This document shows positions 3,874-59,994 of a stretch of 64,000 nt of DNA, one piece after another; positions within the stretch are counted from its first letter, which is position 1; each line of letters opens with the position of its first letter. This stretch comes from Sorex araneus (lineage: Eukaryota; Chordata; Mammalia; Eulipotyphla; Soricidae), in contig NC_073303.1 in the NCBI RefSeq assembly GCF_027595985.1, positions 331,997,179-332,061,178 on the forward strand. Direction: 5' to 3'. The translations under genes and the position numbers were made by a program. Under the pieces are notes generated by a model. The model did not search any database and was not told the DNA's origin. It saw nothing but the letters and a program-made list of their open reading frames with translations.

Positions 3874-4224
<351 letters not shown>

Positions 4225-4289
4225 CTATTTTCAGTCTTTTGACCTTATGGAAGTTTTCAAGTAGGTAAAATGGACCTGAATAAAATAAC

Positions 4290-4816
4290 ACTAAAATGGC
4301 CTGCTTTACAGGGATGTCATACATAACAGATGTAGAATATGTTGATTTTTCACTTCCCCTCTCCTTCTTTTCTGTGCTCTGGGGCAGCTCGCTGATACAC
4401 TGGTTCTCCTCCTTCAGGATATATGTGACATGACTGTCATTCCCTGTCATCTTGAAGTTGAGCACTGCCATCTTGAAAGTGATGAGTCTCACTTCTTGCA
4501 GGAAGCCTTTCAGAATGTTTGGGATTTCTCACATCCCCTCCCCACTGACAGTGGAACTCGTTTTCTCCATATGGTAGAATCTCTGTGATCCTGAGATGTG
4601 TAGCAGAGCCTTCCCGCAACTGTAACTGACGAGTGGGAGAGTCAGAAAGAACCCTTTGTATTCCCAAGTTGTTGAGATTCTGCAGTACTCTGTTATTACT
4701 GCAAAACAACTCTTGTGGACTGAGACGAGGTTATTGGAATTTACATAGTCATGCTTGTGAACAGCTTGATGACGTGTAAATATTATCCGCAGATTATGGA
4801 AGTGGCTATCTGCCAT
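4290..4816 (-). pseudogene. Unidentified coding-like relic in CLUL1 intron 5
   Basis: Three overlapping minus-strand frames (4816-4529, 4709-4437, 4492-4175) look like pieces of one protein. Text such as LREGSATHLRITEILPYGEN in one frame is followed in another by FLQEVRLITFKMAVLNFKMT and NDSHVTYILKEENQCISELP. The first and third frames share a register interrupted by one TGA; the middle part is shifted. This is the pattern of a processed pseudogene with a frameshift pair. I cannot name the parent family, and no poly-A tail or direct repeat was clear. Confidence 0.35.
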
Positions 4817-4861
4817 TTGGGATCATAAGAGACAGCTGTGGGAAAAGACCACACACTCAGG

Positions 4862-5048
4862 TCCCAAGAGATAGTATAATGGGCAAGGCGCTTGCCTTGC
4901 AAGTGGTTAGCTTGGGTTCAGTTCCTGGTGTCACATATGGTCTTCTGAGCACTGCCAGGAATGATTCCTGAGCAAAGAGCCAGGAGTAATCCCTAACACA
5001 AAGCCAGGAGTAAACTCTGAGCAACACTGAGTGTGACCACAAGACAAA
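4862..5048 (+). repeat. Older shrew SINE
   Basis: Diverged sense copy with an internal near-duplication of the 'agccaggagtaa' segment. Confidence 0.8.
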
Positions 5049-5113
5049 ACAAATGGAAAGACCACAGACTCTAAACTACGTCTTTTGATTTTACTTAAAA
5101 AAAGTCCTTCAGA

Positions 5114-5775
5114 GTGCTCTCCACCAAGATGTAACCCGGGTGGCCGCACGTGTGTGGCCTCTCCGTTGCTGGATGACCATGATCCCAGAGGCCAGCTAAA
5201 CTACCTTTGGTACCAGCAGCTTCTTGCTGAAATGTCTCTAGACTGTGAACTAAGCCACGGCCCCATGCCGCCCCAGGAGGAGAAAGGTTTTTCTCTCTCC
5301 ACTTTTCCTTTGTGGGGGAGGGGGAAGGGGTGGTGACTATAAGGACCACTAAAGAGAGGTACGAGCTTGCAATGATGCAATTTCTGGCAGAAATTTCCCT
5401 GGACTTAGTTACTAAAATACTAAAACACAGAAATCCCAAACCTCATATCTCTTCATTCTCAGCAATGAAAAACAAATTATTCAATGCTTCCTTTTCAGCG
5501 GGTCTGATTTTGGGGGGCAACTCTAAACAATAATAGTGAGGTTTTTTGTGGACATATTGAATGTAATCAAAGTAAAGAGAAAGTAAAATGAAAATTATCA
5601 GCTACACAGGCGGGAGGGATGGGGTGGGAGGGGAGGTATACCGGGGTTCTTGGTGGTGGAATATGTGCACTGGTGAAGGGATGGGTGTTCGACCATTATA
5701 TAACCGAGACTTAAGCCTGAATGCTTTGTAACTTTCCACATGGTGATTCAATAAAAAAATAAAAAAAACTTAAAA
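5114..5775 (+). mobile_element. 5'-truncated LINE-1, 3' UTR only
   Basis: Contains the shrew L1 3' end (gatgggtgttcgaccattat; ggtgattcaataaaaaaata) with A-rich tail. The 15-bp TSD AAAAAGTCCTTCAGA at 5099-5113 and 5776-5790 defines both ends. Short open frames inside are not genes. Confidence 0.9.
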
Positions 5776-6211
5776 GAAAAAGTCCTTCAGAAATATAGGG
5801 GTGGGAAACCTACCCACCAGAGACCAGGTGACTACCACAGATCTTAAGCATCAGTTTATCAGTTCTTTCTGATATGTAGATAGGAAAAGAAAAAAAATCT
5901 TCAAAAGAATACTTAGTCAGTAAACAATAGTTGCAATATTGCAATGGTATACAAATATTTGAGAAGTGATTTTGAGAAGATATTTGAAACAAAGGGAGTT
6001 TCAGTAAGCAAGAGTTAGGGTGCACTTGAAAGGTGATATGAATGTTTTTTGAATTTCTTCTTTAGAACTTCAGAGTTGCATATGCTGTACCACTGAGTTA
6101 TCACCTGCCCCAATAATTTTTTTTTAATTTTAAGTAAACTGTTCTGATTTCCTTTGTATCTTGGGCAAGAGTATATTCTAAATTTCTTTTAATTTGAATT
6201 TATTAAAATGA

Positions 6212-6380
6212 CTATCCCCGAGACCAGAATTATAGTACAAGGACAAGGCACTTGTCTTGAATAAGTGTTTAATGCCTGGCATCTTATGTGGTCCCTCTGA
6301 GCACTGCCAGCAGTAACTCCTGAGTGCAGGGCCAGAAGTTATCCCTGAGCACTGCAAAACAAAATAAAACAAAAAAAATT
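6212..6380 (+). repeat. Older shrew SINE
   Basis: Diverged sense copy ending in an A-rich tail (caaaacaaaataaaac). Confidence 0.75.
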
Positions 6381-6649
6381 AACTCAATGTTGCACATGCA
6401 TTTAAAGTTTAAAAAAAACAATTTGAAAAATGATTGAAAATGAAAACTTTTACATATAGTTTGATGATCAAGTGTTGATTATTCATTTAATATTATGGAA
6501 TTTTAGGGATTTAGCTTCATATTTGCATATGTGTGTGATTGTTGCCATTGCCACTACCAAAATGATTCCCTACTACGTCATCCCATGTGACCCTTCCCTT
6601 TCTTTCTGGGAATCTCTGGTTCCCTCTGGAACCATGTCATTTCACAAAG

Positions 6650-7720
6650 CTCAGGGGTTAGTTTTGTTGGTGTTATTTTACCAGTTTGTTTGCTTTTTTA
6701 ATTCATATTCCACATACGAACAAAGCAGCAGGCAGTTGTCCTTCAGTTCTTTACTTATGCCATTTAGCATAATCACCCCTAGATCCATTCATTTTGCCCC
6801 AAATAGTGCCACTGGGCCCGATTTTCTCTTTTTCCATGGTATTATATTGAATACTGTATCACAGATTCTTTTAATTAGTCATCTATTGATGAGTAGCTAG
6901 GCTGAGTCCGTGCTTTGACTATTATGAATAAAGCTCTTATGATCATCTTTTTAAGTTAGGTTTTCATGTTCACCAGATAAATCCCTGGGAATGGTATTAC
7001 CAGATCATAAGTAGTCTCCATTTATTGATCTTAGTTTTTACTGTCTCTTTTCATTTTTGCCCAGACGTGCTAGTGCTGGGAGCCTCTCCCTACTCACTGC
7101 TTAGATGTTGCCTCCAGAGATGCTTAGCGGTGTGGTGCAGGGATTGACCCTGGGCCACCTGTTTGTGATTCATGTGTTCAAGCCCTTTGAACTATCTCCC
7201 CAGGTCCATTTTTATGTTGTATAAGGAATCTCCTTAGAGTTTTCCATAGAGATGCACTAATTTACATTCCCACCAACTGTGCCTCTGTGTTGTTTTTACC
7301 TCCACAGCCTCACCAACAGTTCCTGTTTCCAGTCTGTTGGATATAGGCCATTCTCCCTAGTGTGAAATGATATTGTACTGTGGTTTTGCTTTGCATTTCT
7401 CTAATAATAAGTGATGGTGAGTGTTTATTCATGTGTCTGTGGGCCAGCTGTATGTTTTCTTTGGAGGCACATCCTTTTAGGTCCTTTGCCAATTTAAAAA
7501 CTGCATTGCTTGTTTTTTTTTTTTTATTGTGAAGTTGTGTGAATTCTTTATATTTTTTGAATCTAAACCTCTTGTCAAATGTATGATGTGAAAATATCTT
7601 CTCCCAATTGCTATTTTTGTGGTAGTTTATTTTGCTGTGTGCGAGCCATTTAATTTGATATCGGCTCATAAATACCCAAAACTTTTGCCAGTCATTGCAT
7701 AAACTCAAGTTTGACTAAAC
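6650..7720 (-). mobile_element. Old LINE-1, ORF2 C-terminal part and 3' region
   Basis: Minus-strand frame 7708-7310 contains ENIQLAHRHMNKHSPSLIIR and EMQSKTTVQYHFTLGRMA, the usual L1 ORF2 C-terminal text. The 3' part continues to about 6650. An old antisense SINE is inserted at about 7040-7205. Confidence 0.85.
7040..7205 (-). repeat. Old SINE inside LINE-1
   Basis: Antisense SINE text ending ctatctccccaggtcc, interrupting the ORF2-derived sequence. Confidence 0.55.
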
Positions 7721-7824
7721 ATAACCTCTTCCAAGTGGTCCCCAGAGTATAAATTTCCACACACCACAAAGTGAAGTTATACAGTAAAGTTGTAACAGCT
7801 CCCAAATCCCAATTTTAAAATGGA

Positions 7825-7975
7825 AAATAGTGGCTAGAGAGATAGAACAAGGGTTAAGACACTTGCCTTTCACCCAACTGACACCAGTTGGTTCCTGGCC
7901 ACTCATACGGTCACCTGACCACCTCCAGGAGTGATCCTTGAACAGTATCAGGTGTGGCCCACAAACCAACAAAAA
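7825..7975 (+). repeat. Older shrew SINE
   Basis: Sense copy (gctagagagatagaacaagg ... tcaggtgtggcccacaaacc). Confidence 0.75.
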
Positions 7976-8439
7976 AATTGGAAAAATGGGTTTCCCTAGA
8001 TGGTATTAGTAGTGGCTACAAGCACTTGAACACACTAACTTCTAAGGCAGTGACCATACCCACCATCACTGCCTACACCCATGAGATCAGTCTCAAAGAT
8101 GAGGCTGCAAAAAAAGGTTAAATCATAAATAATTAACAAAAACAGCCTAAACATGAGTAAAAGTAGGTAAAGTGCTACCTTTTCCTTAAGACTGAAATTT
8201 CCTGAAATGGCTATTATTGCTATTCCAAGAAACAACTCGACTTTTTGTCTCTGAATCTCTTCAAAACAACCTCAAACTAGGGTGAGAATGGAAGAGGTGA
8301 CCCACTGCTCTCTGGTATTTCTCCAGTAGGGTATAAATACAAGAAGAATTCTTTCAAAGATATCCACTTACACTTTTAGCATATGCTACCAGGAAAAAGA
8401 GCTTCCTAGAATAAGGGTGAAGATTCACACAAAACATAA

Positions 8440-9530
8440 TAACACAGGAAAGGAAAAGTTTCTATTCATAGAAGACGTGTTCTTGTCTACAGAAAACACT
8501 AAGGAACACACACACCTTAAAGTGAATGAAGAGTTCAGAAAGGCCACAGAAAACAAGATTCATATCAGAGAAAAGTCAAGTATTTTTGTACTCTAATAGC
8601 AGACCAAAAATGAAGAAAACAATGCTATTTGTGATTACATCAGAAAGAACAAGATGCCTATGAATGAAACATTAAAAAGAAGTGCAAGACTTAGACACTG
8701 AAAAAACGTCTTTGAAAATAATTATCAAAGACTTAAATAATAAATGAAAAGGCTTAATATTAATATGGTGACAAAAGTAAATGTATGCCTCCAGTATAAC
8801 AGTATGGAGGTTCCTAAAATTTTTTTAAAGTCTTACAAGCCAGTTACTTCAATAATTTAAAAATAAAAATAGAATTATCACATAAGCCAGCAATCCTTCT
8901 GAGTATTTATCTGAAGAAAACAAACAAAAACAGCCATTTGGAAAGATAGCTGCATCCTCATGTTCACTGCAAGAATTTTTAGTCCTGGAAACACAGGGAA
9001 CAATCTAAATGTTCTTCAGTGGATGAATGGGTAAAGAAAACGTATAGCTGCTTACCTGCTTCTATACCTGTTTACCTACCTATCTTCTATCTGTAGACCT
9101 ACCTACCTGCCCGTCTACCTATAGTCAGTGGAATATTATTTAGTCTTAAAAAAGGAGAAATATTGCCATTTTTGACAATCTGGAAGATCTTAAGGATTAT
9201 GCTTGCTGAAATAGTCATATAGAGAAAGACAAATATCACAGGATCTCACTTATATATGGAATCTGAGAACTAAACAAAAAAGAGGTCAAAGGAGCTGGAG
9301 AGATAGGATGGGGTTTAAGGCGCTTGCCTTTTACTCAGCTGACTCTGGTTCAATCCTTGGTACCCCATGTGGTCCCTTGAGCACTACCAGGAGTAATCAT
9401 AAAGCAGAAGTCAGTAGTAAGTCAGGTTAGCCCCAAAGAAAAATAAATAAATGAATAAACTCAGAGATACAGAGAATAGATTGGTGGCTGCCAGAGGTGG
9501 GGGGTAGGAAGTGGGTGAAAGGTGTGGAGA
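8440..9530 (+). mobile_element. Old LINE-1, ORF2 3' part and 3' UTR, split by a SINE
   Basis: ORF2-derived text (catagaagacgtgttcttgt; cagtggatgaatgggtaaag; atctcacttatatatggaat) continues after the inserted SINE with agattggtggctgccagagg, a standard L1 3' UTR phrase. Confidence 0.8.
9292..9440 (+). repeat. SINE inserted in LINE-1
   Basis: Sense SINE with a tail of taaataaatgaataaa, interrupting L1 sequence. Confidence 0.75.
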
Positions 9531-9980
9531 AAAACAAAAGGTACAAACATCTAAAGAGAAGATAAGTTTAGTTATAAAATAAAACATATGTTGAGTTAAC
9601 AATTCAAAGCATAGTTCAAAGTTGCTAAGATCTTAAAAGTTCATAGATAAAAGTGTAACATTTATAAAGAATATTTAAAAGTGTGTAACATCAAAAAGGC
9701 GTGTAGAATATAGTGATATGACTAGATTTATTGTGATTACTGTTTCACATTTTAAACAAATATCAAGTCATTTTATTAAACACCTTAAACAAATAGAATG
9801 TTGTATGCAAATTAAAACTAATAAAAAGCTTTATAAATCTACATGGAGTAGCACCATATGAAATGAACATCCCCAAAAAAATGCTGAAGAAAAAGAAAAT
9901 GAAGCCAGGATCCTTATAAAAATGAGATTCGGAAACCTGACCAGATTGCTATTGAAACCCATAAGAAAATAATAATTTAC

Positions 9981-10118
9981 CTTTGCATACATAATTCTGA
10001 TATTCTGGGCATCTTGTATGAAACTCAAAACATTCTGACACATTCAGGCCAACTTGCCCACAGAGTTCTTTCTCTGGCATCGACCAGTTCTTTGAATTCA
10101 GGTTTCGATAGTCAGAGT
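9981..10118 (-). CDS. CLUL1: CLUL1 coding exon 5 (second cysteine cluster)
   Basis: The exon encodes residues 286-331 (split codons at both ends, 138 bp). The acceptor is TTACTTGCAG and the donor is GCAAAG|GTAAAT. It holds the second cysteine cluster: Cys305, Cys315 and Cys322 are kept. Residue 325 is Tyr (context RCPEYQNY) where human CLUL1 has Cys. A new Cys appears at 330 (NYVCKE). A sequon NVS lies at 311-313. By homology with clusterin, residue 325 pairs with residue 116, which is also not Cys here. Confidence 0.93.
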
Positions 10119-10607
10119 CTGCAAGTAACACAGCACTTACACATTAGTGTCACTAGAGTCTCACTTTAGAGGAACGTGCATAACGTTATTTCTTTTACTT
10201 GCCAGTGCCTACAACATCTACATCCTGTGTACAGTCATAGGAGTGTATATTGGTGCAACCATTTGCCAGGGCAATTTGTCATCTATGAAATACTGTACAA
10301 GTATCTATTTGGGGAAGTCCAGTCTTCTCATTACTATGGTTGTTACTCTTCATTTTTAGAGCACACCCAAGAATGGTTAATATATATTTAATATATTTCG
10401 TTAATATGTTTAATGTAATTTATTTCATGCGAGGAATCATGAGGGATTGTTGATAATAGCCTTTGAGAGAAAGATTTGATGAGGTGGAAGGAAATTTAAA
10501 TTATTTTAAATGTGTTTTATTTTTATTATTTTTTAATGTCAATTTAATAAACTAAGCACAGGATTTAAGTCACTTTTCTCTTTTGACTTCTCGATTTAAA
10601 AAATTGT

Positions 10608-10960
10608 AGGGTTCAGAGAGATAGTACAGGGGGTGGGGCACTTGCTTTGCAAGTGGTTGACTTGAGTTCCATCCATGGCACCCCATATGGTCCCCAAGCA
10701 CTGCCAGGAGTGATCACTGAGTGCAAAGCCAGGAGTAGCCCTGAGCACAGTCCAATGTGCTGACAGCACCTGCCCCCTCCTCCCAAAAGAGACAAAGAAA
10801 AAAAATTCTGTACAGGAATTGAGGACACTTGTCTTACATGCAAGTGACCTAGGTTTTATAACTGGCAGCACATATGATTCCCTGAGCACCATCATGAGTG
10901 ACTCAGCATATAGAGCCAGGAGTAATCCCTGAGCACCTCTCTCTGAGTATGACCCCAAAA
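10608..10960 (+). repeat. Two older sense SINEs in tandem
   Basis: Copies at about 10608-10790 and 10810-10960, each running from the 'agagatagtacag' region to the 'gagcac' tail region. Confidence 0.75.
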
Positions 10961-10982
10961 CGGAAAGAACTTTTTTAGTATT

Positions 10983-11160
10983 TTAAGTTTTTTATTTCTT
11001 TTTGGGCCATACTTAAAGGTGCTAAGGAGTTACTCCTGACTCTGGGCCCAGGGATCACTCCTGGTGTGACTCAGGGGACCACATGGGGTGCCAGAGATTG
11101 AACTTGACTTGGATGCTTAAAAGGCAAGCACCTTACTCACTGTACTGTCACTCTGGTCCT
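10983..11160 (-). repeat. Older shrew SINE
   Basis: Antisense copy (tttctttttgggccatactt ... actgtcactctggtcct). Confidence 0.8.
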
Positions 11161-11500
11161 AATTTTTAAGATAATAATTGGAAAGTACATCAGAGTTATT
11201 GGGAATAATTGGGAAATGTATTAGAGGTATCAGAGATGTTCATGTCTAATCTGAACATTTGCGATTGTTTTATTACTGTGTTTTTGCTTTCATACATAGA
11301 CTTATGAACAGTGGATCAGAGATTTTGGAAAATACCTAAGGCAGACCAAAATTTGAGAAAAGTATTTTTTGGTCTGTGGGACCTAAGAATTTATCAAAAA
11401 TGATTATATACAGAAGCAGCATATGTAACTGAAAGTTGACAGTTCCCGCTTGTATTTCACAAAGGAAAAATTTATTGCAATGAATAACCTGATCATTTTT

Positions 11501-11674
11501 TTTTTTTTGCTTTTTGGGTCACACCCGGCAATGCACAGGGGTTACCTCCTGGCTTTGCACTCAGGAGTTACTCCTGGCGGTGCTCAGGGGACCATATGGG
11601 ATGCTGGGAATTGAACCCAGGTCGGCCGCATGCAAGGCAAATGCCCTACCCGCTGTGCTATTTCTCCAGCCCCC
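11501..11674 (-). repeat. Young shrew SINE with 15-bp TSD
   Basis: TSD AACCTGATCATTTTT at 11486-11500 and 11675-11689. Confidence 0.95.
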
Positions 11675-11729
11675 AACCTGATCATTTTTATATTTATCCT
11701 CAAAATTTAAAAACAAAGCTTTTCACTTT

Positions 11730-11898
11730 TTTTTTCTTTTTGGGTCACACCTGGCAATGAACAGGGGTTACTCCTGGCTCTGCACTCAGGAATTACCCCT
11801 GGCCATGCTCAGGGGACCATATGGGATGCTGGGATTTGAACCCAGGTCAGCCGCGTGCAAGGCAAACGCCCTACCCGCTGTGCTATCTCTCCAGCCCC
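11730..11898 (-). repeat. Young shrew SINE with 15-bp TSD
   Basis: TSD AAAGCTTTTCACTTT at 11715-11729 and 11899-11913. Same orientation as the SINE 55 bases to the left. Confidence 0.95.
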
Positions 11899-12149
11899 AA
11901 AGCTTTTCACTTTGAAATAAATTGTGAAGTAAATTGTATAAAGAACACATGGAGCATTTTTTGATTACTTGACATATCAGGCAACCATCTCTTTTGTTGA
12001 CTAGAAAGGCTTCTCTGCCAAATCCCTGAAGATTTAATTCTTTTGCCCTTATAGATACAAAACTTTCTATGGAAAAGTTTTGTAGAACTTATTTCTGCTC
12101 CATGCTACTCTCCGAGCCCCTGAGGAGAAGATGTATAGTCTGATACTTT

Positions 12150-12655
12150 ATTTTATTTTTGGTTTTGGGGCCATCTGGACCTGTCTTCATCTCTGTGCTC
12201 AGGAGTGACCATTCCCAGTAATTGAAGGACCATAGATGCTGCCAGGGACCCAACCAGGGTTGGCAGAATGCTAAGCAAGCACCTTAACCTCTGTAATACC
12301 TTGTTGGTTCCCAGTCTTGTTACTTTGTTTTTATTTTAGTTTGGGGGACATACCTGGCTGTGCTCAGGGATCACTCCTGGCAGTACTCAGAAGACCACTT
12401 GTCATGCTGGGGGTTGAACCCAGGTCAGCAGCATGCAAGGAAAGCTCTTTAACATTTGTATTATCTCTCTGGTTCCTTACTCTTGCTACTTTTGTTTTGG
12501 GGCCATACCTGGCAATGCCCAGGGGTTACTCCTAGCTCTACACTCATAAATTAATATTGGTGAGTCTTGGGAGACCATGTGGGATAGTAGGGATCAAACC
12601 TGGGTCAGTGAGGTACAAGGCACGCACCTTAACCCCTGTGCTTTCTCTCTGGCCC
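12150..12655 (-). repeat. Three older SINEs in tandem, all antisense
   Basis: Copies at about 12150-12310, 12330-12475 and 12490-12655, each ending 'tctctctggttcc'-like or 'ctggcccc'. Confidence 0.75.
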
Positions 12656-13309
12656 CTGATCTTGCTACATTAATCAAACTTTCTTCTTTTACTTGCCAGG
12701 TGGTAAGATAATTGTTCTCTTATGAATGTTCTGGACATTCATTCAGGTTATCACTGTATAGAAGCAGGAAAGAGACCCTGAGCACCTTGGGGGAGAGACT
12801 GGTCCCTTGATGTGTGAATGAAGGGAACCTGCAATTGCATTTGGAAAATCACTTAGATTCCTACTTATATGGAACTTTGCTATGTAACATAAAAGATAGA
12901 ATAGGTCAGGCGCATTGGGGGACACTTTTTTGTTTTAAAGAATGTATTCTGAATATTATTCTAGGACTATTGATGTTTGCTTAAGAGGTCAAGAAAAAAT
13001 TATTCCATATTACCTTAGATTGATGTATTTAGTTTAGTTTAGTGTCCTGATACTTTTCCTGAATGCTTGGTGATACCAAACACCTGACTTACAAAAAAAC
13101 GCTTATCAGACCCTGAAATAGAATCCAACAATTCCAGTAATGAAAACTCATGGAACAATGGGACAGGAAGGATATAATGCATGATTTCCTGGATTCGGTT
13201 TCTATGTGTGAGGTAAGCCCCTCCTGTACAGAGGCCAGTTACGCAATGCTGTGGCAACTGTCAGAAATTCATTTAGATATTGCCAGTGACATTTAAAAAA
13301 TCTGTAGCT

Positions 13310-13465
13310 AGGGCCAGAGAGAGTACAGGGGGTTAGGCACTTACCTTGTAATGTCCTGGATCAGCCCCCTGGCATCGTGTATGGTCGCCTGAGCACTGTC
13401 AGAGGTCACTCCCAATCAAATAATCCCTGAGCACCTCCAGAAGTGGCCCAAGCATCCTGTCCCAT
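13310..13465 (+). repeat. Older shrew SINE
   Basis: Sense copy (gggccagagagagtacaggg ... tccagaagtggcccaagc). Confidence 0.7.
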
Positions 13466-14447
13466 CCCCAGCGAATCTGTACATAACTACTATATACAAC
13501 TACTATGGCATAAACCAATCCATCACCTCTGAAAGTGTCATCTTGTGTCACTGTCATCATCATCACCATTATGTTATTATATCATTATTATTTACAAGAA
13601 TATTTAACATGGTATTACATATAAAGTTAATAAATAAATGCTTCTTAGCAACATTTTAAGTCTGCAAAGCAGTATCATTGACTATAAACAATGTGCTATA
13701 CAGTCAATCATCAGGATCCATTTCTTCCACATTACTGAAACTTTGTACTCTTGGGCCAATACCACCCCATCTTCCCCTTCCTTTAGCCACTGGGAACCAC
13801 CATTACATAATCTACTTCTATAGGTTTGACTATTTTAGATTCCATTAGAGGAGCCTCCTCCACACCCCTTCTTTTTTTTTATCATTTTAGAAATTAGCAA
13901 CTTTCACTTGTCCTGGTGGAAAATAAGAGATAAATCCAAAGAAATTAATTTTGTGTATTATGTTATGATTTTTAGGACTTACATTAGTGATGCCAAGGTT
14001 TCAGAGGGCCCCAAGTAACATGATGTATGTGACACTAGATTTATTTTTAGATGAGAATTGAAAAACTTTGACTTTAAAAGAAATCCCATGGGGTTAAAAT
14101 AGGATCAATCTTCATCTGTGGAAGTTTTCACAAAGGAAAACTTTCCTCCATAAAGTTTTCCCAAGAACTTGGTTTTCTAAAATTTTCACCTTAATTATAT
14201 TTTCTCTTCCAAAAACTGAAAATTTGCTTTAAGAAGAGAGAACAGCCCCACAAATGTCTTGATAGTGTTGGAAGAGGGATAAAACCATTGTTTGGCACAC
14301 TATAGAGCTGCTTCTCAGAGGCTCTAAAACTTTGATTATTCATAATGTCACTCAAAAAAGTATACAATGGCCTAGAAATTTTCAAAATTTCCAAAGCTAA
14401 ACAAAACTTGACTTTAGTATAGACATCTAAGTAAAAATAATCTTTCA

Positions 14448-16780
<2,333 letters not shown>

Positions 16781-16784
16781 TGAA

Positions 16785-16920
16785 TGGTGATGAAAAGATT
16801 GTACAAGAGTTAAGGCCCTTGCCTTGCATGTAACCTACCCTAGATTGAATCCTCAGCACCTCAAGCACTGCCAGGTATCACTTATGAGCACAGAGCCAGA
16901 AGTAGTTCTGAGTGTGAGTA
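16785..16920 (+). repeat. Older shrew SINE
   Basis: Sense copy (gccttgcatgtaacctaccc ... agcacagagccagaagtag). Confidence 0.65.
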
Positions 16921-17079
16921 GTTCTAAGTGCTGAGTATTGCTACCTTCCAAAATAAGATGAAAATTAGTATTTGGGGGGCCTCCCAAGAAGTAATCAGGG
17001 GGCATGGATGTTTCTCCAAGGCATTCTCAACAAGCTGGGCTGCAGTTCAAAGCAGCAAAGACATAATGCTACTTGGACC

Positions 17080-17285
17080 CTGTGGTGTGGGAATTACCTG
17101 GGTCATACTGGTGGTGCTTGGAGGACTCCAGCACCATTCCTGGTGATGCTTTGGAGACTGTATGGTGCTGAGGATGGAACTGGGGTTGACCACATGCAAG
17201 GCATATATATATATGTGTGTGTGTGTGTATTTATAAGATACATATATATATTTTTTTACACCCTATACTATCTCTCTGGTCCCAT
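17080..17285 (-). repeat. Older SINE with internal TA/TG microsatellite
   Basis: Antisense SINE text to 'accacatgcaaggca', then (TA)/(TG) repeats at about 17204-17262, then 'ctatactatctctctggtccc'. The microsatellite expanded inside the element. Confidence 0.65.
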
Positions 17286-17343
17286 ACATTTAGAATTTTA
17301 AAAAGTTGAAGAAGCTACCATAACTGTGAAATCTTGAGCTCTA

Positions 17344-17523
<180 letters not shown>

Positions 17524-17774
17524 CTAATTAAAAATTATAAACAAACATTATATTTCCACTTCATGATTTTGTATACCTCACTTGATTTCACCCTTGAACA
17601 TGTGTCTGTTGAAGCTGCATGCAAAAAAAGGTGCATGTGGACTGAGAAGAGAGCTAAAGAGTTAGAGAGCATGTCTGGAATGCACAGGGCCCACTTGGTC
17701 AGAGCACAGTTAGCTCCCAGCACTAGGAAGTCAAAAAGACTCCCCTCACCCCCCACCACCACCCTTCACTCCCC

Positions 17775-17935
17775 CCAAAATGTGCAGGCCTGGAGAGATG
17801 GCTTATTAGGCGGGAGCACATGTTTTGCATGCAGAAGGCCCAAGTTCAGTCCTGGCACTGCAAGGTCCCCTGAGCACAGAGCTGAGAATAGTCCCTGAGT
17901 GGTATAGGATATGACCCCCCAAACAAACAAAAAGT
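17775..17935 (+). repeat. Older shrew SINE
   Basis: Sense copy (gcctggagagatggcttatt ... accccccaaacaaac). Confidence 0.75.
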
Positions 17936-19800
17936 GAATACTATGAACGAATTTTTCATCCCTTTTTCAAGCCCCTTCATCCCTTCTTCAGGGTGGTAGG
18001 CCTACCCAAATACATTGTGTTTGATGAGGAAAAGACACCAAAGAATCTCTGTTGTGAAAATTGGGTCCATTTGTTCATTCACTTGTTTGCTCAGCTAGTG
18101 TCTAGTAATCACAGTGGCCCGGACATCATGCTAGATTGTTGTGAACCACAGCAATGGAGGTGTGCCCAGGGCCCCTCCTTTGGGAGGAGGACTAGGATCT
18201 CATTTGTCTTCATAACTAGTCTATGGAGGATGTGGAAAACAAGTTTGAAGTATTATAAAAGTATCACATTACATTTTAAATTATGCTTCCTTTAATTTTT
18301 AATGTCCTGAAACATTGAATGAAGTGTGCTTCTCAAGTCTCAATTCCAATCTGCCCATCGAATTACACTCTAATTGCGTTTCTCTCTTTTGCCATCTTTT
18401 TCATTCTGGTCCTTACTCGAGCACTCCCCCTTGTGGTGTCTGCTGTCCATCTGAACCCAAGACCCTTAGAGTCCTGCCTGCCCAGTCCCTGCCGGGCTTG
18501 CACCCCTTTCTGACTCACATGCCAGCCTTTGGACATCTGAGATCGACTCCCCTCATGCCTTGGGGATGCATCTTGGGGAGATGATCTACCTCCCTTTAAG
18601 TGAAAACGCATAGAAGAGAGTAGTTTCTGGACCTATTACCAAATTATTGTGATTCTTTCTCTTCCCTAATTGGAAGAAAAGGAAATCTTCCATTCCTGAC
18701 AAGCCCAAAGAACCCCCAGGGCACTGAAAAATCTTCCTCCTTTCCTCTGCAGGGCCCAGATTTTTCTGCTGTCCTCGGGACAGAGTTCTGAGCCAAGCCA
18801 GGTGGCAGTTGTTAATGTCCCACATAAGAAACCTGGTAGGACCCCAGTCAGCCAAATGCACCATGTGACCCCCCCAAAAGTTTCTTATATCCTTGGACTT
18901 TGCAGAGCAATCTTGAAGCCTACATCTTCTCAAGAAAGTTGACCTCACTCTCAGGAAACACCTGCCAGGATTCTCCTTCAGCGCCAGGCTGAAATATTTA
19001 TGCATTGTCACCATAAATCCAAACCCCTGTACTTCCAATTTCAAACTATACATATTGTATATCTCTGGGAAAATTAGCCATATCTATGAGTCTTGTTGTT
19101 CTCCTTATCAAGAAGGACAAACAATAGGATTCACCCCAAAAGCTTCGGTACTTTGCCAACATAATAAAAACCATTTATGAAATCACATGTCCCAAGTTTG
19201 GCAGGTTCAGTGTTGCCACAAATGAAGTCCTGAAGTTCTGGAATGACCCATTCAATTAAGAGTGCCATCAGCTGAGAGTGGCCATACTTAGAACTCTATA
19301 CCTATATTTTGCAATTGATCAAAATCCTATAAACCTGTGTGTGGGAAGGGGGAGGGCAGGTAAATCACTTTAAGCTCGCTAGGGTTTCCCCTTAAGTTTC
19401 AGATGGCTGACTAGGTATTAATGGGGAGAGGTTAGGTTGGTGATGTTAGTCACCTGACTTTAGATAGAGCTCTATGCTGGGACACTGGTGGTGTTCACCC
19501 CCCAGATGCCAATCCTTCACTTGTCTAAAGTAGGTTTTATTCAATGTTTTAAATAATTTCAGGGATGGAGACTCAGGCTAAACAAGTTTTTCTTCTTTTT
19601 TATTTTCTTAATTTTTAAAAAGAAACTTTGCCTTTATTAATAGGAATTCAATGATGTTCTGTTTAAAACAACACTTTTAAAAGCTCATGAGTTCACTTTA
19701 ACCCTTGACTGCTGGGAGCACTTTGAACTGATAAAACCTAGGAGCCCTCCTTTTTTTTTTTCTCAGATAAACTTGTTAATGGAGGGTCCAATCCTTGAGT
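17936..19800. other. CLUL1 intron 2, unique sequence
   Basis: No repeat, RNA or exon recognised. The longest frame (155 codons, 19053-18586 minus) lacks a recognisable domain and splice context. Confidence 0.4.
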
Positions 19801-19817
19801 AAAACTCAATGACTTTG

Positions 19818-19975
19818 TTTTGGTTTGGGGCCACACCCTTGATGCTTAGAAGTTACTCCTGGCTTTGATCTTAGGAATGACTCCTGGCAGGACTCAGGGC
19901 ACCATATGGGGTACCTGAGATAGAACCTGGGCTGGCCACCTGCAAGGTATATGCCCTACCTGCTAATCTATGTGA
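19818..19975 (-). repeat. Older shrew SINE
   Basis: Antisense copy (gtttggggccacacccttga ... ctacctgctaatctatgtga). Confidence 0.75.
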
Positions 19976-20664
19976 CTCTACACAAGAGGTAGGCTTTAAG
20001 CAAAAATAAAGTCTTAAAGTTCCCAGGATTCTTCAGAGCTACAACTGAAACCCATGCTTTCTGGAGCCTGCCACACTGCTGCTTTCTTTCCCTAGTGGTA
20101 CCTTCATGGCTTGCCAGGAGGCTTGGGAAAGTCACGGTTCCCATAGCTACAGCGCCAACACTTTCTCCCCAGTTGCTCATTCTAGGGTTGAGTCATTGAT
20201 CACCACCCCAAGCCTCCGTTTGCTTAGCTGGAGAGCTGGAAGTTAGCTGTTAGAATGTGAGAATGTGTCTTGTGAATGGCCTGTCAATGATATCTCTTGT
20301 CATTATCCCCAGACTTCCAACCTCACAAGCTCACCAGGAAGGAATCCAGGTCCAAAGCCTTCCACTGTTTCCTCACCAGGAGCCAAATATTATTTCCCCC
20401 AAATTATTTTATTACTGCCCAACGGGAGCAAAACTTAAAGCTGCTAGGAACCCTGACCATGGCATCAGCTCACTGGTGATAGATTTTGGGTTTAGACTGT
20501 GATGGAACTCTGTCCCACTTGCTTATGGGTACTCAGAATCCACTGAGCTTGGAAGGGAAGAGAATTCCAGTAGTTATGGGATGCGGTGACCTCTGACTTT
20601 ACAGGTCTTTAGGTTCAGGTCTAGGAGGACTTATCAAAACTCCTAGTTGTTTTCACTGAAAAAT

Positions 20665-20990
20665 TGGCTGTGGAAGCAGCTAATGGCTCAAGTGGCTGAA
20701 AGCACCTGCCTCGCAAACTTGAGGTCATGAGTTTGATCACTGGTACCTTCCACATGTGCCGTCTGAGATCATGGCAGCTCCGCCCCAGCTGATGCTCAGC
20801 ACTGCAAGTATTTTCAGCTGCACCACAGCCTCATGTGTGCAGGCACCACAACTAAAGGGTGCAACCCCCAACAGACACTGAATTAAGAAGCTGTGAGCAC
20901 TGTAGCCTGGAGTGCTATCCTTGGGGTGAGCAAGTAGGTGAGCAGCACAGCTAAAGTGTGCTCTGGCAATCATCATGGCTGTGTGGCTGA
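20665..20990 (+). repeat. Probable diverged SINE-like repeat
   Basis: Begins with a sense SINE-like arrangement (tcaagtggctgaaagcacct, gaggtcatgagtttgatcac), then diverges. Confidence 0.35.
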
Positions 20991-21259
20991 GCACACTGAT
21001 GTGTGCCTATGGACAAGTGCCACAACCAAGTGTCCAGTGAGATCCCAGGCTATGCCAACAACAGCATCAACAGAAGGAAGAGGAAAAAAATAAAAGTTGT
21101 ACAAAGACAAAATGGGCATAGAGTTTCACCTTTGCAGGATGGACAGAATTCTGGAGAATGGTCATATGACAGCGTGAAGGTACTTAGCACTGCACTATTT
21201 GAATGGTACAGAAAAAATATGGTTTACTAGCACCCAGAACTTCTTAAACATGAAAATAA

Positions 21260-21425
21260 GGCCATGGAGCTAGTTTAAGGATCATGGCTTTTGCCTTACA
21301 TGCTGCTTCCCCAGTTCGTCTCCAGAGTGCTGTCAGGAGTGACCCTTTAGCACAGAAGCAGGTATGGCTCCTGAGCACCTCTGGGTGTAGCCCAAATGCC
21401 TCCACCCTAACTCTTCCCCCCCCCC
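21260..21425 (+). repeat. Older shrew SINE
   Basis: Sense copy (gccttacatgctgcttcccc ... tctgggtgtagcccaaatg). Confidence 0.65.
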
Positions 21426-21544
21426 AAAAAAAAAGAAAATAAAAATAGAGAAAAATTTAGAAGCAAATTTATGCTCAAGGTTGAAAAATTATATCATCCA
21501 CAATAATGTTTGTTACAGTTTTGACTTCCTCTTTGATTTAAGGG

Positions 21545-21816
21545 TATCACTGTATCACTGTCATCTCATTATTGTTCGATTTACTCCAGCAGTCACCAGT
21601 AACATCTCGTTACTCGTTACTCATTACTGGTGACAGCCCTGAGATTTTAGCAGCCTCTCCTTACTTGTCTTTCCCAATGATTGGAGGCTCTTTTAGGGTC
21701 AGGGGACTGATGAGACCTATGGTTACTGTTTTTGGCATATCAAACACACCACAGGTAGCTTGCCAGGCTCTGCTCATGTGAGCGGGATACTTTTGGTAGC
21801 TTGCCAGGCTCTCCAA

Positions 21817-21820
<4 letters not shown>
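21545..21820 (-). repeat. Long-form shrew SINE, antisense
   Basis: Reads ctgtatcactgtcatctcat, then gagattttagcagcctctcc and aggctcttttagggtcaggg, then gtagcttgccaggctctcc. This carries the internal block absent from the short form at 58003-58244. Confidence 0.75.
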
Positions 21821-21868
<48 letters not shown>

Positions 21869-21893
21869 CACATATATGTATATATATAATATA
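21821..21893. repeat. (TA)n microsatellite
   Basis: About 70 bases of TA with a few TG/CA interruptions, at the 3' edge of the antisense SINE body. Confidence 0.95.
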
Positions 21894-23339
21894 TATCACT
21901 CTCTATGATTTGTTGCCTACTGTCTGAACTCCATCAAATATGGTGTGGTAATTATGGAAAATGGGTAGGAAGAGTCTTATAATGTGTTGCGCAGCTGACA
22001 CATTATCTGGGTTCCGTGGGACTTCATTCATGCGTGAGGCTCAGAGTGTCCAGAAAGTGGCCTGCAGTGTGGTGGTGGTTGGGTAATTTAAGGGAAATAT
22101 TGGAAAATGATGTTGGTATTTGGAATAAAAATCTGAGGTTTTTCTTATGTGAGGTATGTGCTTTATCACTGAGTCATGTCTCTAGCTAAAAAAAAGATAA
22201 TTTAAAAAATATTTTAATTGTCTTGACTGTTATGTTAATTCTCTGTTACTAAAATACAAGACATGGTATACCTAGGATTTAGAAATGTGAGTTTTATACT
22301 TTCTAACATATAAACAATTTTTAACACCTTCTATAGAAATTTGAAGATAATCTCCAGTAGTAAGAGAATTAGCTTGAAAGGTATTTGAATGAAAAACCTG
22401 ATTAAGGGTCAAAGAGAGTAGAGAGGGTACGACTTGGTTAGACTGATATATTATTTCATATATATTAATTTTTCTTTCAGTGCTTATGTCAAACTGATGC
22501 CTGTGGCTACATGCAAGGGACCGCCTGGGGCATTGGAAGGATGGGGTGTGGGTGGGGGGCCCTCCACATTCCAGAAGCCTCAGCAGCAACTCCCTCTTTC
22601 TTTGTTCTCTTGCATCCAGTTACAAAGAATTGTTATTCAAGAGGTAAACGATGGATGTTATTGTCTAGTTTTAACTAAACTAACCCTCACTGAACGGACA
22701 GGAGGCTTAAGAATTTCTTGGGAAAAACAACCAAGCACGTTAAAAGCAATTAAAAAAAAACATGAATAATAAAGCTCAGGTAGACAAGAAGCAAATGGCA
22801 GAACTGATCGTTTCATTATGCACTCTTTATTGGCTTCATGGGGAAGGAAAAATATAATGATTCAAGTAGATCTGGCAAGCCAGTTAAAAATAATAAATAT
22901 CAAAATAAATGGAAACATGGACTCACATCTATTCAAGCTAGTGATAACCTAAGTCTATTTTGTGTAATGAGATAAGGGTGGCAGCAATTCATGTACCTAA
23001 TTTGTAAATAAGCATGTATATTAAAGTAAATTTTTAAGTGTTTTAGTAATAGGGACAAGGGATCAGAAACTTGGGGAAATATTGATCTAGCTAAAATTTT
23101 CCTGAGCACTTTTGACTTTATAACCGAATTCAGGAGGGAATAAGGATAAAACATTTTAAAGGAAGCAGCTCTTCCCAATTAGATAAATTCCAGAGCTTCC
23201 AAGTGTAGAGACCTCTAGAGTCTATTCTGCAAGAAAGTTTCTCTTTAAAGAAATTTGAAGTTGCCTTCAACTTTTTCTGCAAATGAACTGCTCCCCAGAA
23301 AATCTTTTTTTAAAATTATCTTTGATGTTCATTTAGGTA
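21894..23339. other. CLUL1 intron 2, unique sequence
   Basis: AT-rich; no exon, RNA or repeat recognised. Confidence 0.4.
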
Positions 23340-23632
23340 TGAGACATGACTAAAGGATTTGACGCATTGCTTACTTTTGTAAGGTCTCTCTCCAGAACTG
23401 TCTCATGTAGCATGAGCTTGGAGAGGCTGCTAAAGGCTTTTTTACATTGTTTACACTAGTAAGGTTTCTCTCGGGAATGAATTATCTGCTGTCCAATAGG
23501 GCTGAGCACCTTGAAAGGTTTTCCTACATTCTTTACATTGTTAAAGTTTCTTTCCGGAATGAATTTTCTCATGTAGTTAGAAGTGAGCACCTGTTAAAGG
23601 CTTTTCCACATTCTTTGCATCTGTGAGTTTTT
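23340..23632 (-). pseudogene. Decayed C2H2 zinc-finger gene fragment
   Basis: On the minus strand the sequence reads THRCKECGKAFNRCSL, a canonical Kruppel-type finger start, followed by two further degraded finger units (REKPY-stop-CKQCKKAFSSLSKL, then a decayed third). Units repeat at about 84 bases as expected. Frameshifts, stops and lost Cys/His residues show it is dead. It sits in CLUL1 intron 2, just downstream of exon 2, on the same strand. Confidence 0.8.
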
Positions 23633-23735
23633 TTTTTTGTCCAGAATAACAGGGAAAAAAAGTAATTTACCAACAACACTAACAAATACAATGTTTTGGT
23701 CTGTGTTAAGAACAGATTCTTTTCAATGATCTTAC

Positions 23736-23884
23736 CTGCTTCTCTTCCTTGCATTTATTCAATGTTTTCATTAGATTGCTGTGTTCCTCCTCTCTTCTTT
23801 CCATCATGATTTTCATCTGCTTAATACCAATCAAAGCTTTCTTCACCTCTTCATCTAAATTTTTCTTCCCTGTCTTGGAAAAAT
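23736..23884 (-). CDS. CLUL1: CLUL1 coding exon 2 (N-terminal coiled-coil region)
   Basis: The exon encodes residues 36 (split codon) to 85 and includes [20 protein letters not shown], the amphipathic helix shared by all clusterins just after the signal peptide. The acceptor is CATATCTCTTAG and the donor is AAGCAG|GTAAG. The length is 149 bp: two bases complete the split Asp codon, then 49 whole codons, ending in phase 0. The region after the signal peptide ([12 protein letters not shown]) is more basic than the human equivalent. A decayed zinc-finger fragment lies in the intron immediately downstream. Confidence 0.93.
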
Positions 23885-23947
23885 CTAAGAGATATGTTGC
23901 AGTATATTTCTTTGAAATCTCATTAGAGACACAGTACACAATTCAAT

Positions 23948-35519: not shown

Positions 35520-36779
35520 GGCTAGATTAGTCTTTCCTATCCTTAGCAGGGTTCTAGTCTTGTCGTTGCTTTTGGATCATGACAGCATTTGTCCATGATC
35601 AAGCTCTTAACTTATAGTTAAGAATCGTGGCAATTTGGCCTGTACCATTTCGATGCCAGAGTAGCTCACAGCTTGCCCTGGGTCCTTTCAGTCCCTTGTT
35701 GGGACCCTGCTTTTGGGGTGCTAGGAACTAAGGGCAGCTGAGGCTTAAGTCAAGAAAGCAGATGCCCAGAAATGTATAATATTTGAAGTCAACTAAAAAT
35801 CCCAAATTAGAAAGTATAATATTAACTGTCTTCCTGTGTCTATACAAAAAGGATATTGCTTTAAAGTAAACTATTCAAAAGACATAAGGAGAGGAGAAAG
35901 GCAATATTAACTTACAATACAAGTTCAGTGTCCTAGAAAGATCTAACCTTGCAAATTAACAGAGTCTGATTAGGGGGAAAAGCTGATTAACTGGTTAGGA
36001 AAGAGAGCCTAGAGAAGTGGTTGCAGATAAACAAAGAAATAGGAGTGACTCAGGAACACTGTGATGGGTGTGACCAGATAAACCTAAGTTCCTTGTGGCA
36101 AGGGAGAAAGGACAAAGCAATGTTATCCTACACCTTTGTGACAAAACAATGCCTCTGACTGACTACAGTGAACCAGAAGTCAGAGTATGCATCTCATGCA
36201 GAAAAAATTTTGGGGTGCATGGAACAAGGCATCGAAAAAAAAAAGTGCATCAAGCAAGAGAGTGGCAAAGAGAACAAGTAACCCACAGCGCACAGATGGT
36301 TGGTCACTGAAGACAAAACATTTCTCATTCATTTTTGTATCCCTCAGTACCTAGCACAAAGCTTGGCCCAAAGTCATCATTAAAAATATCTTTGTGAATG
36401 TCAACTACTATATTCAGTCATCTGCTGCACTAAACTTAGTATGTGTGGAGAGGTCAGCATGTAGACAGACAAGCTGTTTCTTTGGCCCACTTTCCATTCA
36501 CTTTTACACTTTTTTTAAAATCTTTCTTGATATCATATGATAATAACAGAATCAGGACAGAATCTGATGTCAATGTTAGTTTTGGTCATCCTGATTTGCT
36601 GAGTTCAAACTCATAGCTCCAAAAGCAACATGAACCTGGAAATAGGATTATTCATTTGGGACTATAGCACAGCCATAAAACATTAGAAACGTATTACTGA
36701 AGATGATTGTCTATGGATTGCACAATATCATCTCCAGATTCTGGAGCCCAGTGGGCAATAAATAATAGCTTGTTGACCA
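35520..36779. other. Intergenic; no gene recognised
   Basis: Unique sequence; short open frames only. Confidence 0.4.
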
Positions 36780-36964
36780 TTTGTGTCAGGCAAGCGAGGT
36801 AGAGTTTTGAGGCATGAAGCAATCCAGATACTCAGTATCATGACACAAATGAGGACATTGAGTAGGACAACCATTGATCCTGTTTGCCAGGAAATAGCCT
36901 GATTTTAGCACTAAAGGTCCTTCAGTCTGGGAAACCTGGGTACTAGGTCACTTGTAATAGTGGG

Positions 36965-37122
36965 TTTTCAATTTTTCTTTGTTTGTTTTTGGGTCACACC
37001 TGGTGGTGCTCAGGTATTATTCCTGGCAGCTTTGGAGGACCATATGGGGTGCCGGTGATTGAATCCCAGTTAGCTTTGAGCAAGGCAAGTACACTGCTTA
37101 CTGTACTATCTCCCCAGGCCAA
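36965..37122 (-). repeat. Older SINE in the palindrome spacer
   Basis: Antisense copy (tgggtcacacctggtggtgc ... ctgtactatctccccaggcc). Confidence 0.85.
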
Positions 37123-37176
37123 ACTTGGAATACTTGGTCACCCTACAATTAGGAACAACTGAACGGTTAGGTTTGG

Positions 37177-37350
37177 GAACCAGAGATAATACAGGGGTTA
37201 AGGCATTTTCCTTGTATGTAATCAACCCCCTTTTGACCCAGCTTGATTCCCAGTACTCCATATGGTCCCATGAAGCCTGGCAGAAGTGAACCCTGAGCGC
37301 AGAGCCAGGAGTAAGCCCTGAGTACTGCTGGGTATAGACCCCCCCAAACA
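37177..37350 (+). repeat. Older SINE in the palindrome spacer
   Basis: Sense copy (accagagataatacaggggt ... actgctgggtatagaccccc). Confidence 0.85.
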
Positions 37351-37717
37351 ATATGTTCAGTGTTCATTACTTCGTGTTCCCTGAGCTTCAGTGCTAAAAT
37401 CAGGCTATTTCCTGGCAAACAGGATCAATGGTTGTCCTACTCAATGTCCTCATTTGTGTCATGATACTGAGTATCTGGATTGCTTCATGCCTCAAAACTC
37501 TACCTCGCTTGCCTGACGCAAAGCTCAGGGAACTTTGTGGAACAGTATGGTTCAGTGGTCCCCAGACACATGATATCCTTTGGCCCTGACAGCAGCCCAA
37601 TTGGCTGAATATCAGCCTCAAGACTCCCCACACCAGTTAGATTGTGATTAACTTTATCAAGAAGTATTATTACAAGGTTATATTTTAAATTTCTCTTTTA
37701 AATTTATCTTAAGTTTT

Positions 37718-58716: not shown

Positions 58717-58804
58717 GTGCTCGCTTTGGCAGCACATACACTAAAATTGGAATGATACAGAGAGAAGATTAGCATGGCCCCTGCATAAGGATGACATGCA
58801 AATA
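58717..58804 (+). pseudogene. U6 snRNA retropseudogene, 3' truncated
   Basis: The segment starts GTGCTCGCTTTGGCAGCACA and continues through AGATTAGCATGGCCCCTGCA, a clear match to the first ~88 bases of U6 snRNA with a few substitutions. The 3' end (last ~18 bases and U tail) is missing. A perfect 16-bp direct repeat, CAAAAGTAGAACATTC, flanks it at 58700-58715 and 58805-58820. This is the target-site duplication of LINE-mediated retroposition. No upstream U6 promoter elements were seen, so it is not expected to be functional. Confidence 0.95.
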
Positions 58805-58820
58805 CAAAAGTAGAACATTC

Positions 58821-59505
58821 CATTTATTGTGATTGGGTAGGTCATTATTTGTGTCTATGTTACTGGTTCTGTGCTTAGAGGTCACTTGTGTAAAAAATAC
58901 TTAATATTTCTTCTATGGTAAAGAAGAGTAGCGCCAAAGAAGATTAGCTCAAAGGTCTGACATAGGAGCAATGATTGCATGTCTGTGTTCATCCATAGTT
59001 CCAGAGTCTTCCATATATTCAAGAATTCAAATATTGAGTAAAAAGATGCTTAGACTCAGAGATCGAAAACAGAACAGTGTATTGGAAAGTAGAAGAGAAA
59101 GAAATTCCCCTATGTGGGAAGGAATTTAGTACAAGATTAAATTATGGTTCATTTTGTGGGTTTTTTATAGAAAAATGGGGTCTTTGTGTTACTTGTGGTA
59201 GGAATGTTACAGAGAAAGTGAGGATTTTACAGAGCAGTCTGGCTCGTTTAGGTTCTTTTAGGTTATTTGTTTGGTTTTTTTGTCTAGTTATTGCCCTTTA
59301 TCAGTTTCCTGTGAGCCTAAAGTCTGGGACAAAAAAATCCTAAGGTTTTCTAAGATCATAGGAAATTGTTAACTTCCCGTTAACTTCTCTTTCTGAATCT
59401 AGGAGTTTGCAGGAACATTAAATGGGTAGAATGGAAACTGTTAAATTTGAGCTGCTCGTGCCACTGACAAGGGAAAACTGAGGCTTCCTCCTTCAGGACT
59501 GAAGT
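58821..59505. other. Intergenic; no gene recognised
   Basis: Unique sequence; an 88-codon plus frame (59077-59343) has no recognisable domain. Confidence 0.4.
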
Positions 59506-59921: not shown

Positions 59922-59994
59922 AATAACTACCAAGCAAACAAAATGCTAACATCCTAATAATAGAAGTTAGCATTTTGTTTGCTTGGTAGTTATT
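59922..59994. repeat. Perfect hairpin, 29-bp arms, 15-base loop
   Basis: Arms 59922-59950 and 59966-59994 are exact reverse complements. The core of the left arm is ACCAAGCAAACAAAATGCTA. Confidence 0.98.

Follow-up and report, generated by a model that had tools for sequence, protein, structure and literature searches.

Here we describe an inverted duplication in the genome of Sorex araneus that comprises two nearly identical 137-bp arms 469 bp apart, one of which is enclosed by the two halves of a short palindrome. The duplication lies in a 64,000-nucleotide stretch of contig NC_073303.1 (hereafter the window, in whose coordinates positions are given unless a contig prefix is used). On balance, and judged from sequence, we favour a reading in which template switching or templated break repair produced an inverted copy of the first arm, which entered the middle of a palindrome that was already present. 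We infer the roles of donor and recipient, the order of palindrome before insertion and the enzymology. Only the palindrome bracket is both unusual and open to testing. The locus is composed of the following elements:

36780..36916, + strand: arm 1, 137 bp, with a 128-bp core at 36785-36912; putative donor
36917..37385, no strand: spacer, 469 bp, with two SINEs in opposite orientation
37376..37388, + strand: left half of the bracket, GTTCCCTGAGCTT, its last 3 bases inside arm 2
37386..37522, - strand: arm 2, 137 bp, with its core at 37390-37517; putative inserted inverted copy
37521..37533, - strand: right half of the bracket, AAGCTCAGGGAAC on the + strand, its first 2 bases inside arm 2

The arms at 36780-36916 and 37386-37522 agree at 135 of 137 bases once one is reverse-complemented, which reproduces the coordinates and the match given in the initial annotation. 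A repeat search of the window returned the same pair as 140 nt at 98%, the highest complementarity among the 25 longest of its 65 inverted pairs of at least 60 nt. The two mismatches (T in arm 1 versus C in the reverse complement of arm 2 at 36784, and A versus G at 36913) are both transitions, one of them at a CpG. They are located at the fifth base from one arm end and the fourth from the other, and the inner 128 bp (36785-36912 and 37390-37517) are 100% identical. Two substitutions placed at random would hit the first five positions once and the last four once with a probability of about 0.002. Given this clustering, either the mismatches are point changes at unlucky places, or the true copied unit would be the 128-bp core, with 3-4 matching bases as short similarities at the joins. 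The similarity at the joins (TTTG and AAG, each beside a mismatch) is 3-4 bases long and is possibly part of a 137-bp copy that underwent two later changes.

A search of the 2.4-Gb genome with the arm, which passes over very common words, yielded two candidates, both of which were scored and correspond to the arm 1 and arm 2 sites. The arm is thus present at two genomic places only and is not a dispersed repeat; insertion of such a repeat twice, the outcome that the initial annotation said would refute its reading, is ruled out. The right flank (37536-37714) matches only itself in the genome. The arm ends are sharp, and one arm is the reverse complement of nearby single-copy sequence. Local alignment of the 40- and 100-bp flanks of the core against shuffles detected no homology outside the identical core (465, 453, 105 and 112 of 1000 one-flank shuffles scored as high). 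Old repeats running across the arm borders, sought in 264 kb as evidence of polarity, provided nothing useful; with self and arm-to-arm matches set aside, four matches were obtained (E 0.036-0.16).

The spacer, as initially described, is 469 bp long and contains two oppositely oriented SINEs. Compared with the SINE at 2111-2281, the first (approximately 36978-37120) is identical at 111 of 141 aligned bases (79%) and the second (approximately 37182-37341) at 112 of 147 (76%), against 90-95% for the four other SINE copies that were tested. The arms differ at 2 of 137 sites overall (98.5% identical) and at 0 of 128 in the core. The simple reading of these sequences is that the duplication event would be recent. 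The near-identical arms, the old SINEs, the lack of detectable outer homology and the lack of any other copy all fit a recent duplication-inversion by template switch or break repair, as had been proposed at the outset. The fold-back variant of that proposal fares less well, as a simple short-loop fold-back alone accounts neither for a spacer of 469 bp nor for the bracketing of arm 2. An old inverted duplication whose arms were kept identical by gene conversion, also raised initially, would account for the difference between the spacer SINEs (76-79%) and the arms (98.5-100%). However, old SINEs can simply predate a recent duplication, and conversion of an older, longer pair should leave diverged homology outside the core, none of which was detected. 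Gene conversion, for which the locus offers no positive evidence, is unneeded and appears very unlikely.

A perfect 13-nt inverted repeat (37376-37388 and 37521-37533) flanks arm 2. Its edges are separated from the core by 1 and 3 nt and overlap the 137-bp arm by 3 and 2 nt; the space between the halves is 132 nt, and the shared core is 128. Excision of the 128-bp core of arm 2 leaves GTTCCCTGAGCTT-CGCA-AAGCTCAGGGAAC, whose halves pair perfectly as a stem of 13 bp around a 4-nt loop, whereas the same excision at arm 1 leaves 4-bp stems only (loops up to 12). When all 137 bp of arm 2 are excised, 10-bp stems with one base between them remain (by eye); if the shared C at 37386 is assigned to the site, the 137-bp excision leaves a perfect 22-bp palindrome (by eye). 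Measured as the inverted repeat at the arm ends (inner edges within 5 nt), the bracket is 13 nt at arm 2 versus 4 nt at arm 1. Among 20,000 random 137-bp segments of the region, one had a bracket of at least 13 and seven had one of at least 11. The GTTCCCTGAGCTT half has G or C at 7 of 13 positions (by eye) and is thus not AT-rich.

The exact bracketed pattern, with 110-140 nt inside, is found at one place in the genome. The 11-nt halves of the bracket, with a gap of 0-30, are found at one other genomic place, C5:171332661, where a perfect 16-bp stem with a 7-nt loop (C5:171332661-171332699) lies in a SINE-like stretch that also contains further inverted copies of the same words (by eye). The bracket word resembles GGTCCCCTGAGC of the SINE, and because of this we take the likeness to be a coincidence of words, which seems more probable than that these palindromes form a family. 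Folded together with its bracket, arm 2 does better than shuffled sequences (z -3.97; 1 of 200 shuffles was as low), which we ascribe to the 13-nt bracket itself.

In the reading we favour, arm 1 would have served as template for an inverted copy of 128-137 bp that was placed some 0.5 kb downstream, in the middle of a short palindrome. For an insert of 128 bp, this palindrome would have had a stem of 13 bp and a loop of 4 nt; for one of 136-137 bp, its stems would have measured 10-11 bp with 0-1 nt between them. A replication fork would stall at the palindrome, or the tip of a hairpin or cruciform would be opened there. A few bases of a 3' end would then anneal to arm 1 close by, and arm 1 would be copied in the opposite orientation, after which the new strand would be released and rejoined to the other half of the palindrome, again through a few bases. 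The outcome would be an inverted duplication with the palindrome halves around the new copy. Several points stand against this reading: the joins share 3-4 bases only, each beside a mismatch; the short-range template switches that have been reported are for the most part far shorter (PMC7954356); the breakage described at palindrome centres concerns palindromic AT-rich repeats (PMC4940405) rather than a palindrome of 20-30 bp; and the bracket is known from one case.

The bracket could instead have been made in the same event, through a multi-switch process without a prior palindrome, in which the new strand, having copied arm 1, turned back on itself, used its own earlier stretch as the template for GTTCCCTGAGCTT and rejoined. 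Breaks are documented to acquire short inverted copies by foldback, most of 5-34 bp (PMC11724301), and compound local inverted duplications are found at C2:331879565 beside 331879871 and in the SINE-like stretch at C5:171332661. However, this route needs an extra switch, and no base pairing is seen (by eye) that could prime fold-back at the inner edge of the repeat; we regard it as a minor possibility. Somewhat less probable still is the reverse polarity, in which arm 2 came first, as the loop above an ancestral 13-bp stem, and was copied to give arm 1. The 128-bp core does almost fill the 132 nt between the repeat halves. Nevertheless, copying would need its start and its stop at the two stem edges, while a single insertion at the centre accounts for both ends together; moreover, closing the gap at arm 1 yields 4-bp stems only, so arm 1 has no target feature of its own.

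A direct duplication followed by a microinversion, in which arm 2 later flipped in situ between the inverted repeats on its flanks, is improbable to a much greater degree. The edges of arm 2 do fit the -5 to +4 nt boundary range given for human-chimpanzee microinversions (PMC8755829), but two events are required rather than one, the human-chimpanzee cases are only 17-33 nt long, and the bracket around a duplicate is left unexplained. We give the least credence to an assembly artefact or an unrecognized mobile element with terminal inverted repeats. The 158-bp bracketed unit superficially resembles a small element with 13-nt terminal inverted repeats, yet its interior matches single-copy DNA 0.5 kb away, its outer bases (CTTCGT versus TTTGTG, by eye) form no target-site duplication, and a search for exact patterns placed the bracketed unit at one genomic site. 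A small transposon or MITE was rejected, with the exact bracketed pattern at one place, the arm at two and no target-site duplication. As for an artefact, a fold-back read error would not be expected to bracket one arm.

The surrounding 264 kb (200 kb fetched plus the window) were scanned for inverted pairs of at least 24 nt within 4 kb, excluding words with more than six places. Sixty-three pairs were kept, 34 of them with low word counts. Of these 34, 29 have spacers of more than 1 kb, and many of these, clustered at 331937-331940 and 331952 kb, we take to be repeats. The remaining five, with spacers of less than 600 bp, were examined; they include the arms at 36780 and 37386, the longest pair with the longest identical core, together with the following four:

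C2:331879565: inverted pair, 91 bp, 6 mismatches, spacer 316
C2:331879871, beside C2:331879565: inverted pair, 34 bp, perfect, spacer 22
C2:331971548: inverted pair, 36 bp, perfect stem with a 6-nt loop, adjoining a SINE-like stretch
59922-59950 and 59966-59994 of the window: inverted pair, 29 bp, perfect, spacer 15, low regional word count

With five short-spacer pairs in 264 kb, local inverted duplication seems to be recurrent in the region. In the other four, the bracket is at most 6 nt, which makes that of arm 2 a single case. The pairs at C2:331879565 and C2:331879871 are compound, side-by-side inverted duplications that look like the result of repeated template switching. The same 264 kb contain ten non-simple hairpins with a stem of at least 11 and a loop of at most 12, four of which have a stem of at least 13. 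At this density a pre-existing palindrome is plausible, whereas an insertion that hits the centre of a palindrome by accident is not.

Any transcript of the locus is predicted to form a long duplex on either strand because of the inverted repeat itself (-436.4 kcal/mol on the + strand against a shuffle mean of -238.3, and -415.1 kcal/mol on the - strand against -227.4; 20 shuffles each). This is in keeping with the potential transcript duplex suggested in the initial annotation. We take the predicted duplex to be a by-product, as nothing indicates a function. A structured RNA gene was considered and rejected: the two gathering-level Rfam matches in the window are both outside the arms, and the interval 36600-37700 contains five weak matches (E 1.8-4.1). 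Separately, a full-length Rfam match to U6 snRNA is located at 58717-58825 (89.6 bits; gathering threshold 44) and represents a gene or a retrocopy.

Profile matches place the exons of a clusterin-family gene on the - strand of the window, at 3895-23888:

23736-23888, - strand: clusterin-family exon, profile positions 3-53
17353-17523, - strand: clusterin-family exon, profile positions 54-111
14442-14891, - strand: clusterin-family exon, profile positions 110-258
3895-4140, - strand: clusterin-family exon, profile positions 299-380
Left of the window: clusterin-family exon, profile positions 372-430

The duplication is 12.9 kb upstream of the first detected exon of this gene, within either a 5' intron or intergenic DNA. 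A Pfam scan of 20 of the 80 listed open reading frames of at least 90 amino acids gave one match, Clusterin, at 14445-14921; as this was the sole match among those scanned, a coding gene at the duplication locus was set aside. A second, compact clusterin locus with six profile matches is found at C1:301834253-301839087. Compared with solved structures, which include human clusterin, the exon at 14445-14921 had no match to a clusterin. The gene in the window is therefore presumably clusterin-like 1.

The locus is best regarded as ordinary in kind with an informative footprint: the origin of the duplication is most likely of a known kind, and the locus probably preserves a clear trace of a template switch or templated repair that was both long and local. 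Should the palindrome predate the insertion, short ordinary palindromes would be linked to the insertion of copied DNA. The locus also illustrates how a single step can yield a long near-perfect hairpin, from which double-stranded RNA could be made. A more speculative extension, to which we attach limited weight, is that short palindromes (20-30 bp) behave in this germline like weak forms of fragile palindromes, that an opened tip captures a copy of nearby DNA, and that bracketed inserts form a recognizable class of mammalian mutation. A limited search of titles and abstract openings found no description of a mammalian inverted copy flanked by the halves of a palindrome, and a narrow literature search on SINEs and inverted repeats in Sorex araneus turned up one gene-family paper, unrelated to the locus.

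The closest known systems are matched in part. Hairpins can be created by template switching (PMC8794818), and in template-switch mutations under the four-point model (PMC7954356) a nearby stretch is likewise reverse-complemented and inserted with a gain in length. In the gold-standard set of short-range switches in great apes (Walker et al. 2021, PMC7954356), the insert has a median of 12 and a maximum of 128 nt and was searched for within about 100 nt. By comparison, the copy at the locus (128-137 bp) is at or above that maximum, its donor is about 0.5 kb away and thus outside that range, and a perfect inverted repeat encloses the copy. At yeast double-strand breaks, foldback inverted inserts of 2 to about 150 bp are described (PMC11724301). 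These are also local, inverted and templated, with a few bases of microhomology at one join in the yeast cases; however, the priming described there is next to the break with a 41-nt loop, whereas the arms here are 469 bp apart. Class 2 templated sequence insertion polymorphisms (PMC5110952) similarly involve a templated insert without a target-site duplication or poly(A), but those inserts are described as templated from distant regions, and the copy at the locus is local and inverted. The definite human-chimpanzee microinversions (PMC8755829) are all flanked by inverted repeats, whose inner edge, two exceptions aside, is within -5 to +4 nt of the boundary. There as here, inverted repeats mark the borders of the inverted segment; by contrast, the locus has a duplicate, and its inverted segment is 128-137 bp long rather than 17-33. 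Finally, breakage at human palindromic AT-rich repeats is reported always to occur at the centre (PMC4940405). The event at the locus would share this position at the centre of symmetry if its palindrome is ancestral, although that palindrome is 20-30 bp long and not AT-rich, and the event is an insertion rather than a translocation.
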